Shown: one piece after another, positions 39,422-43,922 of the stretch
Position numbering within the stretch: position 1 is the stretch's first letter
Layout of the letters: each line of letters starts with the position of its first letter
Assembly (NCBI RefSeq): GCF_001661265.1
Contig: NW_017567004.1
Coordinates: 16,959-80,958 of the forward strand
Direction: 5' to 3'
DNA: 64,000 bases
From: Saitoella complicata NRRL Y-17804
Taxonomy: Eukaryota; Ascomycota; Saitoellomycetes; Saitoellales; Saitoellaceae
Position numbers and translations under genes: made by a program
The notes under the pieces: model-generated
Told to the model about the DNA's origin: nothing
What the model saw: the letters and a program-made list of their open reading frames with translations, nothing else
Database searches by the model: none

Positions 39422-40518
39422 ATGTCGACTGCACCATCCGGTACGTTCTGCTTGAAGGTGGTGATGCAGATTGAAGGGCGTTGGCTGACGGAGGGTGACA
39501 GCTCGCTTTTCCTTCGCTCGGAGTGGGGTACCGCAGAATATTGGTCATAGAGGGTATGCCTGAACCTGCCTGGATCCATATCAATCTTCTGACCTGGTCC
39601 GACATAGTTACAAAGCCCTCTACCCCGAAAACACCCTTCTCGCAATGCGTGAAGCAATCCGCGCCGGCGCCTCCGCAATCGAGACGGATATCCACCTCTC
39701 CAAAGATGGGACTGTGGTGATTTGCCACGATCCCTCTGTTGACCGAGTTTTTGATGGAGAGGGTTTGGTGGCGGCTAAAACGGATGAGGAGTTAAGGCGG
39801 TTGAGGACGAAGAAGGCGCCGCATGAGGGGATGCCGACGTTGAGGGATGTGTTGAAGATGGTTACGTCGGAGAAGGAGTACGAAGATGTGTGGTTGCTGC
39901 TCGATACGAAGGTGCAGTGCTCTAAACCTAATTTGTTCCGAACTAAGCTGATGTAACATTGTACAGATGGACAACCCCAAATCCGTTATCGAAAAGATCG
40001 GCGATACGCTGAAAAGCGTCAACCCCTCCATGACCTATTGGTCCTCCCGCATCCTCCTCGGCATCTGGCACCCGAAATTCCTTCCTGCTTGCGCGACACA
40101 CTTACCCGAACTTCCCATCACCAATATCTCCCTCACACTTTCCATCACGAACAAATATTTCCCCCTCCACCATCCGCAAATATCCGCATACAACATCCTT
40201 CTTCCCGCACTCTCCGGACTTGCCGGCCAGAAGTTCGTGAGGGATGCGCAGGACGCAGGGAAGAGCGTTTGTGTTTGGACGGTGAATGATGAGAAGTGGA
40301 TGAGATGGGCACGTAAATTGGGGGTCGATGGTGTCATTACGGATGACGTTGCGCAGTTCAAGCAAATTGAGGGAGAGGATGAAAAGGAGAGTGACGGGGT
40401 GTTGATGGGACCGGAAGAGTGGAAGTGGAAGGCATGGGGGAAGGTTAAGTTCTGGGAGTATTTTGCATGGGGTTTCGGGTATTATAGGTTGTGGCAGTTC
40501 AGGGATCGTGGGGTGTGA
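39422..40518 (+). CDS. Glycerophosphodiester phosphodiesterase (GDPD family)
   Basis: Hydrolyses glycerophosphodiesters or related lysophospholipids to glycerol phosphate or phosphatidate plus alcohol. Four exons (39422-39440, 39502-39553, 39608-39911, 39967-40518) give 308 residues with all phases consistent. The active site is assembled across two splices: NIGHRG then YKALYPENTLLAMREAIRAG and IETDIHLSKDGTVVICHD, the general-acid His, the metal-binding Glu/Asp pair and the second His. Near the end, VCVWTVNDEKWMRWARKLGV and DGVITDDV are also typical. No signal peptide. The C-terminal WEYFAWGFGYYRLWQF is aromatic and might peripherally touch membrane. Confidence 0.92.
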
Positions 40519-40600: not shown

Positions 40601-40622
40601 CAGCTGCACAGCTGCACAGCTG
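40601..40622. promoter_or_regulatory. Three CAGCTG palindromes at 8-bp spacing
   Basis: CAGCTG occurs at 40601, 40609 and 40617 within a tandem AGCTGCAC repeat, 87-108 bp upstream of the ZIP transporter start (40709). CAGCTG is an E-box-type palindrome; three evenly spaced copies so close to a start codon suggest a factor-binding array. It may also be just a short tandem repeat. Confidence 0.4.
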
Positions 40623-40708
40623 CACAGTGACGCGTGACTTGATCCTCGACGACGCGCCGCGCCTGATCAACACTCAACCCGCACAAACCACCAAGGTTCG
40701 TTACAAAG

Positions 40709-42427
40709 ATGCGAACCTTCTCAAAGGCCTTCACGGGCCTTGTCCTCCTCCTCGCTTTTATCACCACTGTTTGCGCCTACGCCGAATACGCCTCCAACCC
40801 CGGATCAAAATCCGCCACCGCGAAATGTCCTTTCCTCCACAACCAGCCCGCCGCCCAAGATCCCGTCGCTCCATGCCCTCTCAAAGGAAAATGCCCCTTT
40901 TATGAGGCCGTCGTCAAGAAGGGCCCTGACGCCCACGCATCCGACATGCAAGTCGACTGGTCTAAGGCTTCGAATTGTCCCCTTGCGAAGGATTGCCCGT
41001 TCTTGAGGGATGCGGCTGAGAAGGGTGAGTTGACGCATGAGAGCCAGATTCCTAAGGATCACTTTTTGGGTATGTTGGAGAAGTGTCCAAGGTTGAAGAC
41101 GAGTCCGCAGGCACGTCATCACGTTGCTGAGATCCTTGGTGTCGAGGGTGAGGTCGAGGCACATGAGCTCGCTCACGGCGGTGAACTCACTGGATGTCCT
41201 TACCTCGATAACGTGGAAAACACGGGTGAGCGCGCGACGTGGTCCAACTTCTACAAGGCGGCTGAGAAGTGCCCGTGGATCGGAGAGCATGGGTACCCGG
41301 CTGCCGCGTCCGCGATGGCAAACAGCCCGAAGGGGTACGAGGCTGCGATTCAGAAGTGTCCCATTGTGCAGGAGCTCAATGCAAAGAAGATGTCGGAGAA
41401 GAAGCCGGAGAGTGGGTTTATTAAGACGCTCTTCGCTTACCTCTTCCCTTCCAGCCCGGCGGTTAATGCGTTACTCGCTACTGCTTACATCTCTGGTCCG
41501 CCGAACTTGCTTCTCGCGTTGGTCCCCGCGGGAATTGACCCTGCCTCGCTTTCGACTCTTGTCGCTTTCGCTGTTGGTGGCCTTCTTGGAGACGTCTTCC
41601 TTCACTTGTTGCCTCAGACCTTCATGGGTGAGCCGAGTGAGACCGCTGTCCGTTTCGTCATGGTTGATGACAAAAAGAACTTGGTCCTCGGTGTCTGGAT
41701 CTTCTTCGGATTCGCTATCTTCATCATCCTTGATAAATCCTTGCGCATCATGAACGGCGGTGAGGGTCATGGCCACTCTCATGGTCACGACCACGCTGCA
41801 CCGGTTGAGAAGAGTGAGGCTTCTACGACCTCTTCTGATGTTACCACCACCCGCGAGTTGCGCAACAGGAAAGTCGATGTCAAAGCCCCCGCCACCTCTG
41901 CGGTCAAGGTCGAAGAACCAAAGCAGCAAATCAAATTCTCCGCTTACCTTAACCTCATCGCCGACGCCGCTCACAACTTCACCGATGGTCTCGCGCTCGC
42001 TTCCTCGTTTTACATCTCTCCTACGATTGGAGCTACCACTACCGCTGCTGTCTTCTTCCATGAGATCCCGCATGAGGTTGGTGATTTCGCGATTTTGATT
42101 CAGAGTGGTTTTACGAAGTCTCAAGCGATGATGTCTCAGTTCATCACTGCCGGTGGCGCCTTTGCGGGTACGCTTACTGGTATTGCTATTCAGCAGTTTT
42201 CCTCCAAGTCCGCTCTCGGTGCGTCGGAGGGGTTGTGGGGAACTTCGTTGCGTGCGGGTGATTTGGTATTGCCGTTCACGGCGGGAGGATTCTTGTATAT
42301 TGCGACGAGTGTTGTGCCGGAGTTGTTGGAGGTTGGACCGAACAAGGGCCTTGAGATTAGGAAGATGATGTCGCAGATGGTTGCGATGTCTGTTGGCATT
42401 GCGTTCATGTATTTTATTAGTGACTAG
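40709..42427 (+). CDS. ZIP-family zinc transporter (LIV-1/Zip7-Yke4 type) with nine-CP-motif N-terminal domain
   Basis: One exon, 572 codons. Residues 1-25 are a signal peptide. Residues 40-217 carry nine cysteines (40, 56, 62, 90, 96, 126, 163, 188, 217), each followed by Pro: for example KCPFLHN, GKCPFYEAVV, DCPFLRDA, GCPYLDN, KCPWIG. The ZIP core starts near 245 and has the metal-site helices AAHNFTDGLALAS (TM4) and FHEIPHEVGDFAI (TM5, HExPHE of the LIV-1 subfamily), with a His-rich loop GHGHSHGHDH after TM3. By family it should move Zn2+ (or Mn/Fe) from ER or Golgi lumen to cytosol. The CP array resembles heme regulatory motifs or could bind metal; neither is proven. Confidence 0.9.
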   Translation: MRTFSKAFTGLVLLLAFITTVCAYAEYASNPGSKSATAKCPFLHNQPAAQDPVAPCPLKGKCPFYEAVVKKGPDAHASDMQVDWSKASNCPLAKDCPFLRDAAEKGELTHESQIPKDHFLGMLEKCPRLKTSPQARHHVAEILGVEGEVEAHELAHGGELTGCPYLDNVENTGERATWSNFYKAAEKCPWIGEHGYPAAASAMANSPKGYEAAIQKCPIVQELNAKKMSEKKPESGFIKTLFAYLFPSSPAVNALLATAYISGPPNLLLALVPAGIDPASLSTLVAFAVGGLLGDVFLHLLPQTFMGEPSETAVRFVMVDDKKNLVLGVWIFFGFAIFIILDKSLRIMNGGEGHGHSHGHDHAAPVEKSEASTTSSDVTTTRELRNRKVDVKAPATSAVKVEEPKQQIKFSAYLNLIADAAHNFTDGLALASSFYISPTIGATTTAAVFFHEIPHEVGDFAILIQSGFTKSQAMMSQFITAGGAFAGTLTGIAIQQFSSKSALGASEGLWGTSLRAGDLVLPFTAGGFLYIATSVVPELLEVGPNKGLEIRKMMSQMVAMSVGIAFMYFISD

Positions 42428-42769: not shown

Positions 42770-43922
42770 ATGCCAAACGTAAACGACGGCGTCCAGACCT
42801 ACGAACTCGGAAACTTCGAGCTCAAATGCGGCGTGACCCTCCCAAATGCCTTCGTCGCCTACAAGACCTTTGGCGATCCCTCGCTTCCTGCAATCATGTA
42901 CCCAACCTGGTACTCCGGATCAATCGCTGACAATGAGTGGTTGATTGGCGAGGACATGGAGTTGAGCCCGAAGAAGTACTTTGTTATCATTGTTGCGATG
43001 TTTGGGAATGGGCAGAGTTCGAGTCCGAGTAATCAGGTGAGTAAGCACCGTTGATTTCAGATGCATATGATCTTGATGCTGACATACTTGCGAACAGGCT
43101 GCTCCGATGAATGGGCCAAACTTCCCGTATATCGCCGTTGCGGATAATGTGCGTGCTCAGTATACCCTCGTCACCGAAAAGCTCGGGATCAAGCATCTCC
43201 ATGCTGTAGTCGGCTGGTCCATGGGTGCTGGGCAGACGTATCAATGGGGTGTTTCCTACCCTGATTTCATGGACTATCTGGTTCCATTCTGCGGATCGGC
43301 GAGGACGGCGATCCACAACAAAGTCTTCTTGGAGAGTATCAAAGCAGCCTTGACTGCTGACACCGAAGGCTTTAAGGGTGGGAACTACGGCGATAAGAAG
43401 CCCGAGGTCGGACTCAAGGCTTTCGGGAGGGTCTACGCTGGGTGGGGCTTTAGCCAGGCCTGGTACCGCGAGGAAATTTGGAAGACACAGTTTGGGTTCA
43501 AGACGCTTGAGGAGTTCCTGGTGGGTTTCTGGGAAGCATGGGCGTTATCGAAGGATGCGAATAACTTGCTCTGTATGCTCGAGACGTGGAAGAACGGAGA
43601 TATCTCGGCTGGTGAACCCTTCAATGGTATATAAATGCAGAGCCTCTCAAATCTATTGTGGGAATGCTGATGATGTTTGTATACAGGCGACTTCGAGGCT
43701 GCTCTTCGCTCAATCAAAGCGAAGACGTTAGTCCTTCCCGGTCATACCGACCTTTACTTCCCTCCCGAAGACAGCCAGTACGAAGCTGAGCACCTTAACG
43801 ATGGGATCTGTGAATCGATCCCCTCGATCTGGGGACATTGGGCGGGTGGACCTGGTGATTCGAAGGAAGATGTTCGTTGGTTGGACGAGAGGTTGTCTAA
43901 GTTCTTGAATGGAAAGGGGTGA
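42770..43922 (+). CDS. Alpha/beta-hydrolase of the homoserine acetyltransferase (MetX)-like group
   Basis: Exons 42770-43036, 43098-43626 and 43687-43922 join in phase to 343 residues. The fold starts with FVAYKTFGDPSLPAIMYPTW and IVAMFGNGQSSSPSN; the nucleophile elbow is AVVGWSMGAGQTYQWG (Ser in GWSMG); acid and base lie in VLPGHTDLYFPPED and the WGHWAGGPG end. True homoserine O-acetyltransferases carry longer acyl-CoA-binding features; this shorter version is common in fungi and is usually annotated only as a MetX-like hydrolase, so the substrate stays open. No targeting signal seen. Confidence 0.85.

Follow-up and report, generated by a model that had tools for sequence, protein, structure and literature searches.

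A YKE4-like ZIP transporter of Saitoella complicata bearing a degenerate copy of a fungal Cys-Pro repeat family: a candidate zinc buffer of the endoplasmic reticulum

Introduction

Among described systems closest to the protein reported here, the yeast transporter Yke4 is presented in passages of PMC7711662 (citing Kumanovics 2006) as a bidirectional zinc transporter of the endoplasmic reticulum (ER), while excerpts of PMC9861476 give the CPALLY pattern of plasma-membrane LIV-1 ZIPs as C(X26)CPALLYQ(X5)C together with a Cys preceding the HEXPHE motif. The heme regulatory motif (HRM) of heme oxygenase-2 (HO-2) spans Lys263 to Ala268 in the rat protein, according to sections of PMC11900463. The buffering of zinc inside the ER is itself poorly understood. 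No ER-resident metallothionein is known to us.

Here we describe a gene within a 64,000-nucleotide stretch of the genome of Saitoella complicata NRRL Y-17804 (NW_017567004.1, positions 16,959 to 80,958; hereafter the window), whose product, P0001, combines a ZIP transporter of predicted ER type with a transporter-borne, degenerate copy of a Cys-Pro repeat family, an architecture well supported by sequence comparison. A conserved, apparently ER-targeted Cys-Pro family fused to an ER-type zinc transporter offers a concrete candidate for an ER zinc buffer, and the fusion hints at a function for a protein family that has no name.

Results

The gene occupies window positions 40709..42427 on the forward (+) strand as a single exon, one open frame of 572 residues without introns, in a window of 53% G+C. 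We regard the frame as a real gene because it has full-length relatives and a ZIP domain at residues 251-570; its product has one match in the 14.12-Mb, 34-contig assembly. A partial Rpb2 of this assembly scored highest against PDB 3h0g (1535 bits; S. pombe), followed by 5x4z (1461; Komagataella), yeast 1i3q (1425) and mammalian entries (about 1200), in line with an ascomycete, perhaps of Taphrinomycotina; as the matched entries included no chytrid Rpb2, this serves as a pointer rather than proof. Three tandem copies of CTGCACAG lie at window positions 40604-40627, roughly 80 bases before the start codon. The neighbouring genes (window 39645-40518 and 42770-43922) resemble, by eye from ORF translations, a glycerophosphodiester phosphodiesterase and an alpha/beta hydrolase, and no zinc or heme gene adjoining P0001 was recognised by eye among the neighbours. 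As for a zinc-responsive promoter, the Loz1-type motif of S. pombe showed no enrichment, with 2 occurrences in the window against an expectation of 3.15, the nearer of them some 700 bases upstream.

The ZIP domain (41459..42418, +) matches Pfam PF02535 with an E-value of 7.7e-55 (186.8 bits against a cut-off of 35.1) and retains intact both metal motifs, HNxxD and HEXPHE, expected of such a transporter. The first, HNFTDG at residues 422-427 (41972..41989, +), is the metal-binding motif of the fourth transmembrane helix (TM4) of ZIPs, and its H422, N423 and D426 are invariant columns in A1, an alignment of 10 sequences that includes P0001 and YKE4-like ZIPs of about 410 residues; the second, HEIPHE at residues 451-456 (42059..42076, +), is of the LIV-1 type, with His, Pro and Glu invariant in A1. 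A His-rich TM3-4 loop, HGHSHGHDH (residues 354-362; 41768..41794, +), is presumably cytosolic by ZIP topology. A search for relatives returned 2922 matches, and several of the 120 listed, on which our counts rest, bear the source label zinc transporter YKE4. Judged by its sequence (PF02535, HNxxD, HEXPHE and YKE4-labelled relatives), P0001 is a YKE4-like ZIP (SLC39) transporter, in keeping with the initial annotation, which had placed it as a zinc exporter in the ER or Golgi; from this we infer an ER location for the protein. The best Foldseek match in the PDB was BbZIP (7z6m; E 7.9e-4, TM-score by target 0.73), obtained with a model of mean pLDDT 52.7 and bearing on the ZIP part alone. A sequence search of the PDB with P0001 gave no match at E-values up to 1, and one with the A1 profile gave five chance-level rows, no ZIP among them.

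P0001 contains ten cysteines, at residues 22, 40, 56, 62, 90, 96, 126, 163, 188 and 217, and Pro comes next in every case except C22, the sole Cys outside a Cys-Pro (CP) dipeptide, which falls in the signal peptide (residues about 1-24; 40709..40780, +; a hydrophobic N-terminus whose boundary was set by eye). This list bears out the initial annotation, which counted nine Cys at residues 40-217, all followed by Pro, and no other outside the signal peptide. For a segment composed like residues 25-230, whose 206 residues include 9 Cys and 18 Pro, the chance that nine of nine Cys precede Pro is 3.3e-11, and the maximum in 20,000 shuffles was 6 CP, against the 9 present. As a lumenal array of nine, however, the arrangement survives only for eight. 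The ninth, C217, opens the motif CPIVQELNA (41357..41383, +), which is common to YKE4-like ZIPs that have no CP domain; its Cys, just before the first membrane helix, is invariant in all 10 A1 sequences. The pattern C-x-[LIV]-[VI]-Q-x-[LM] was matched in 100 of the 120 listed ZIPs, including P0001 and two further CP-bearing ZIPs (CP-ZIPs), P0005 and P0006, with Pro after the Cys in 64 and another residue in 36, and among the 20 without a match all 12 inspected have a Cys at that place. C217 thus belongs to a YKE4-wide pre-membrane motif and hence to the transporter body, so that the array proper consists of eight CP. The 117 other ZIPs fetched from the matches listed contain from none to two CP each, and 113 of them are 390-430 residues long.

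Searched alone, residues 25-235 of P0001 matched three proteins, P0002, P0003 and P0004 (E 6.1e-15, 1.9e-13 and 1.3e-11), none with a Zip domain. A profile, A2, matched 43 proteins: these three, the CP-ZIP P0005 and 39 more, making 42 relatives without Zip; the search was length-filtered, P0006 being above the limit, and P0001 was not among its matches. Named sources include Rhizoclosmatium, Chytriomyces, Spizellomyces, Powellomyces and Synchytrium, which we take to be chytrid-type, and Ambispora, Acaulospora and Entrophospora, presumably Glomeromycota, as well as others; examples are P0146 (Spizellomyces SPPG_08063), P0002 (Rhizoclosmatium HDU79_007822) and P0157 (Entrophospora). Precomputed Pfam annotation assigns no domain to any of the 42, and we found no description of such a family in the open-licence literature, among the matches listed. 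Pro follows 638 of their 714 Cys and so clearly matters; the CP array to which the initial annotation drew attention is, on searching, conserved in homologues of the N-terminal domain.

The repeat itself could be defined from A3, an alignment of 17 selected short members, outside which stand the short P0138, P0151, P0153, P0155-P0157 and P0159-P0162 and all multi-unit members. Its canonical unit has 11 conserved Cys columns, arranged as five pairs and a last single CP. Across the 42 relatives, 283 of the 293 Cys pairs found at spacings of 5-8 are spaced by 6 or 7; members carry from one to about four units, and up to 44 CP occur in one relative. Histidine makes up 5.8% of the 42-member family, with H80, H155 and H166 nearly invariant in A3 (n = 17). 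In two of the 42 predicted proteins, both known as predicted gene models only, three CxC each lie beside the CP units (P0131 of Podochytrium, residues 174-196; P0159, residues 56-84), in stretches that look metallothionein-like by eye, a Pfam search of the two giving no metallothionein domain.

Several features suggest that the family is apparently held in the ER, on its lumenal side. C-terminal xxEL tails of the ER-retrieval type (HDEL, KDEL, RDEL, HEEL and others) end 31 of the 42 relatives, and hydropathy points to a signal-like N-terminus in 27; both features occur in 22 and neither in six, several of the rest being partial or doubtful gene models. None of the 117 other fetched proteins has an xxEL tail, a weak control, since these are ZIP membrane proteins. 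In a hydropathy scan most of the 42 had no membrane-like stretch past the N-terminus, the clearest exception being P0132 (2.35 over 15 residues), where a gene-model fault is perhaps responsible. P0001 ends in FISD, with no C-terminal retrieval tail, as expected of a membrane-anchored fusion.

Regular Cys pairs 6-7 residues apart, in a secretory location within an oxidising lumen, raise a reading in which the CP cysteines both form and swap disulfides on the lumenal side of the ER and, through their oxidation state, gate the zinc channel or act as a buffer of lumenal thiols. Precedents exist in part: sections of PMC11900463 describe HO-2 CP motifs as a thiol/disulfide switch, and a passage of PMC9861476 speculates that plasma-membrane LIV-1 ZIPs gate through a CPALLY cysteine. 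We nevertheless think such a redox module rather unlikely, given the odd number of Cys, 11, in the canonical A3 unit and the persistence in CP-ZIPs of single Cys whose i+6 partner is gone, both compatible with disulfides of longer range, and given conserved His that the reading leaves unexplained.

To what extent the domain of P0001 resembles this family beyond its CP dipeptides was gauged with a profile built from A3, which contains no CP-ZIP. It scored P0001, P0005 and P0006 at 43.5, 46.9 and 99.9 bits, respectively, and none of 500 shuffles of each with CP fixed reached these scores; when the two residues following each CP were also fixed, 3, 14 and 2 of 500 did so. The similarity is therefore genuine, although most of it resides in the CP motifs and the intervals between them, and by sequence the CP domain of P0001 is homologous to the Cys-Pro proteins of chytrids and Glomeromycota, rather than unique to P0001.

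Pairwise comparison allowed the array to be assigned slot by slot. In BLAST, residues 56-172 of P0001 align with residues 90-183 of P0139, with slots 3, 4 and 5a and the terminal CP in register, and the pairs P0001/P0004 (E 2e-11) and P0006/P0125 (E 2e-19) agree with this assignment; a further alignment, A4, had placed C56 and C62 at slot 2 and was set aside in favour of the pairwise alignments, which give slot 3. The first dipeptide, C40-P41 (40826..40831, +), can be placed at slot 2b, the first member of that pair being absent from P0001. There follow the pair C56-P/C62-P, slot 3a/3b, which includes the HO-2-like GKCPFYEA (40874..40897, +), and the pair C90-P/C96-P, slot 4a/4b (40976..40999, +). 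At slot 5a, C126-P is followed six residues on by S132-P133 (41084..41107, +), likely a Cys-to-Ser remnant of slot 5b; Ser-Pro occupies slot 5b also in P0006 (S230-P231) and does not in P0005. C163-P (41195..41200, +) is the terminal single CP of the unit, and C188-P (41270..41275, +) an extra one that is missing from P0005. With eight CP and a Ser-Pro at slot 5b, P0001 lacks the complete 11-Cys unit, and its array is thus a degenerate relative of the family and not a full member. Two single cysteines, C40 and C126, have outlived their i+6 partners, which argues against an obligatory short-range disulfide.

AlphaFold models of the CP region are poor, with block pLDDT means of 27-45 over residues 31-220 of P0001 and a mean of 49.7 for P0146. 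No metal site can therefore be modelled, and since low pLDDT is to be expected of a chain that needs metal, heme or disulfides to become ordered, the models do not discriminate among these. A candidate match of residues 162-208 to the ALAS presequence (Pfam E 0.0061; 17.4 bits, under the 21-bit cut-off), and one in P0146 (E 0.25), were rejected and read as shared short CP motifs.

Degeneracy (8 CP against 11 Cys), low pLDDT and the scarcity of CP in the 117 other ZIPs might together be taken to mean that the domain is a disordered remnant inherited from an ER protein and plays no part, through metal or redox chemistry, in the transporter. We consider a relic of this kind very improbable: all nine Cys of P0001 have kept their Pro, and CP positions are common to P0005 and P0006 although identity to P0001 in the ZIP domain is only 60.1% and 58.5%, respectively.

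These two are at least two other CP-ZIP fusions among the 120 matches listed of the 2922, so that further ones may exist lower down. In a tree of the ZIP part, P0001, P0005 and P0006 split from 110 other sequences with support of 0.993 (seven of the 120, in which the start motif was not found, were dropped). The named others are, judging by their names, ascomycetes, and with midpoint rooting the tree cannot date the fusion. No separate CP gene was found in the Saitoella genome by queries P0146, P0004 and P0153, which matched only the P0001 locus, or by a CP-x3-K-CP DNA pattern, whose one genome match lies inside the P0001 gene, at the C56/C62 pair (reversed controls gave 3 and 4); the sensitivity of these searches is limited, the pattern covering one spacing with Lys only and query P0125 giving no match at all, the P0001 locus included. 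The sole genome match being the fusion gene, this fungus may have kept the CP module solely in fused form. A ZIP of this layout was new to the initial annotation, and we likewise found none described in the open-licence literature, among the matches listed.

Two side observations concern cysteines elsewhere in such transporters. P0005 resembles plasma-membrane LIV-1 ZIPs in having a Cys, C425, directly before HEIPHE, in addition to a pre-TM1 CPVVQEMN, and P0001 has no such Cys before HEIPHE. Another ZIP of the same genome, L004 (G000:C4:624399-625322, minus strand), has an N-domain rich in Cys-His combinations (CH, HC, CHYHAGVEHC), so that two ZIPs of one genome, P0001 and L004, bear unlike Cys-rich N-domains.

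The HO-2-like slot 3b bears on whether the CP sites bind heme and so couple ER zinc to heme status. Of the 17 members in A3, 16 have Cys at this slot, and the next residue is Lys in nine, Ser in four, and Gly, Ala and Pro in one each; in the other ten slots Pro is kept in all but one case. A motif search of the 25 members outside A3 found 51 slot-3b-like sites, with Pro at 48, Thr at 2 and Ser at 1; part of this count falls on slot 4 or on other pairs, and P0156, P0157, P0161 and P0162 gave no site. P0001, P0005 and P0006 all keep the Pro. The initial annotation had held that homologues retaining Cys without Pro would refute heme or metal sensing: they do occur at slot 3b, in 15 of 16 cases in A3, but Pro stands at 48 of 51 sites elsewhere. 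The loss is real but is seen mainly in a single group of short members; it is thus modest sequence evidence against heme, and an argument made weaker by the Pro kept at those 48 sites. The exchange of Pro for Lys or Ser at slot 3b alone, with Cys kept, in one short chytrid set may mark a distinct role for the slot-3b Cys.

Other evidence on heme is likewise divided. CP is a known heme-ligand motif, in fungi too, the CPC motif of S. pombe Hhy1 being an example in sections of PMC13135908, and CP heme sites typically lie in low-confidence AlphaFold regions, as stated in an excerpt of PMC11101860. The retention of Pro in most of the family and at most slot-3b-like sites outside A3, the sub-threshold ALAS presequence likeness of residues 162-208, and Lys as the commonest residue before CP (250 of 638) point the same way. 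Yet one of the two CP sites tested in Hhy1 is dispensable for heme binding, by the same sections of PMC13135908, which makes CP alone a poor predictor of heme. The fusion partner, moreover, is a zinc protein and not a heme protein, and the large number of CP in one relative counts against heme as well. No heme sensor with as many as 44 CP is known to us. Regulation by heme is possible and not favoured, and to our minds quite unlikely.

Discussion

The analysis shifts the context of P0001 from a one-off ZIP oddity to a worn, transporter-borne copy belonging to a Cys-Pro family of fungi that apparently resides in the ER lumen. Its fusion, its homology to the family, the retrieval-type tails of that family and the intact ZIP metal motifs are all read from sequence. 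The best explanation, which we hold tentatively and put at a little short of even, is that the domain binds zinc in the ER lumen and acts there as a buffer attached to a zinc channel. P0001 would be a YKE4-like zinc transporter of the ER membrane, with a lumenal N-terminus made of one degenerate Cys-Pro unit, whose Cys, with nearby His, would bind zinc in the ER lumen; free members of the family would buffer or store zinc in the lumen. In Saitoella, where no separate copy was found, the buffer would instead be anchored to the very channel through which zinc enters and leaves the ER. Zinc as ligand, and buffering or relay as function, we infer. Consistent with zinc are the fusion of the CP domain to a zinc transporter in three proteins among the matches listed (P0001, P0005 and P0006), and the His content of the family, with its nearly invariant His in A3 and the CxC-rich stretches of P0131 and P0159. 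Against a zinc buffer stand the oxidising conditions of the ER lumen, under which Cys often pair as disulfides, and the retention of Pro at most slots, which goes beyond what zinc binding alone demands. If the ligand were instead heme, or the chemistry that of disulfides, the fusion would link an ER zinc channel to it.

Put more broadly, and with clearly less confidence than the zinc buffer itself, early-diverging fungi might have a dedicated ER-lumenal zinc reservoir, formed by an undescribed family of Cys-Pro proteins that end in retrieval tails and would be to the ER what metallothionein is elsewhere. In the fungus of P0001 and at least two other sources, this reservoir would be covalently joined to the ER zinc channel and act as a relay, loading or sensing zinc in the lumen.

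Compared with known systems, P0001 is closest in its transporter body to the ER ZIPs of the LIV-1 subfamily, yeast Yke4 and mammalian ZIP7 types, sharing their ZIP domain, HNxxD, HEXPHE, His-rich TM3-4 loop and secretory N-terminus, and differs in the addition of a 200-residue Cys-Pro lumenal domain. That domain shares slots 3, 4 and 5a and the terminal CP, within residues 56-172, with the Cys-Pro repeat proteins; those have no Zip, mostly end in retrieval-type tails and contain one to about four units, whereas P0001 combines a single degenerate unit with a ZIP and lacks a tail. Its Cys-Pro shortly before TM1 (CPIVQELN, at C217) is reminiscent of the CPALLY domain, but P0001 has neither the spaced pattern C(X26)CPALLYQ(X5)C nor a Cys before HEXPHE, there being no Cys after residue 217. 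With HO-2 it shares the short K-CP-F form; it differs from HO-2 in compartment, in partner, in its long arrays, and in a Pro that at this slot is lost in one set of relatives and kept in others. Like metallothionein, it is Cys-rich and likely unstructured without ligand, but it has no CxC, its Cys pairs standing 6-7 residues apart with Pro after each.
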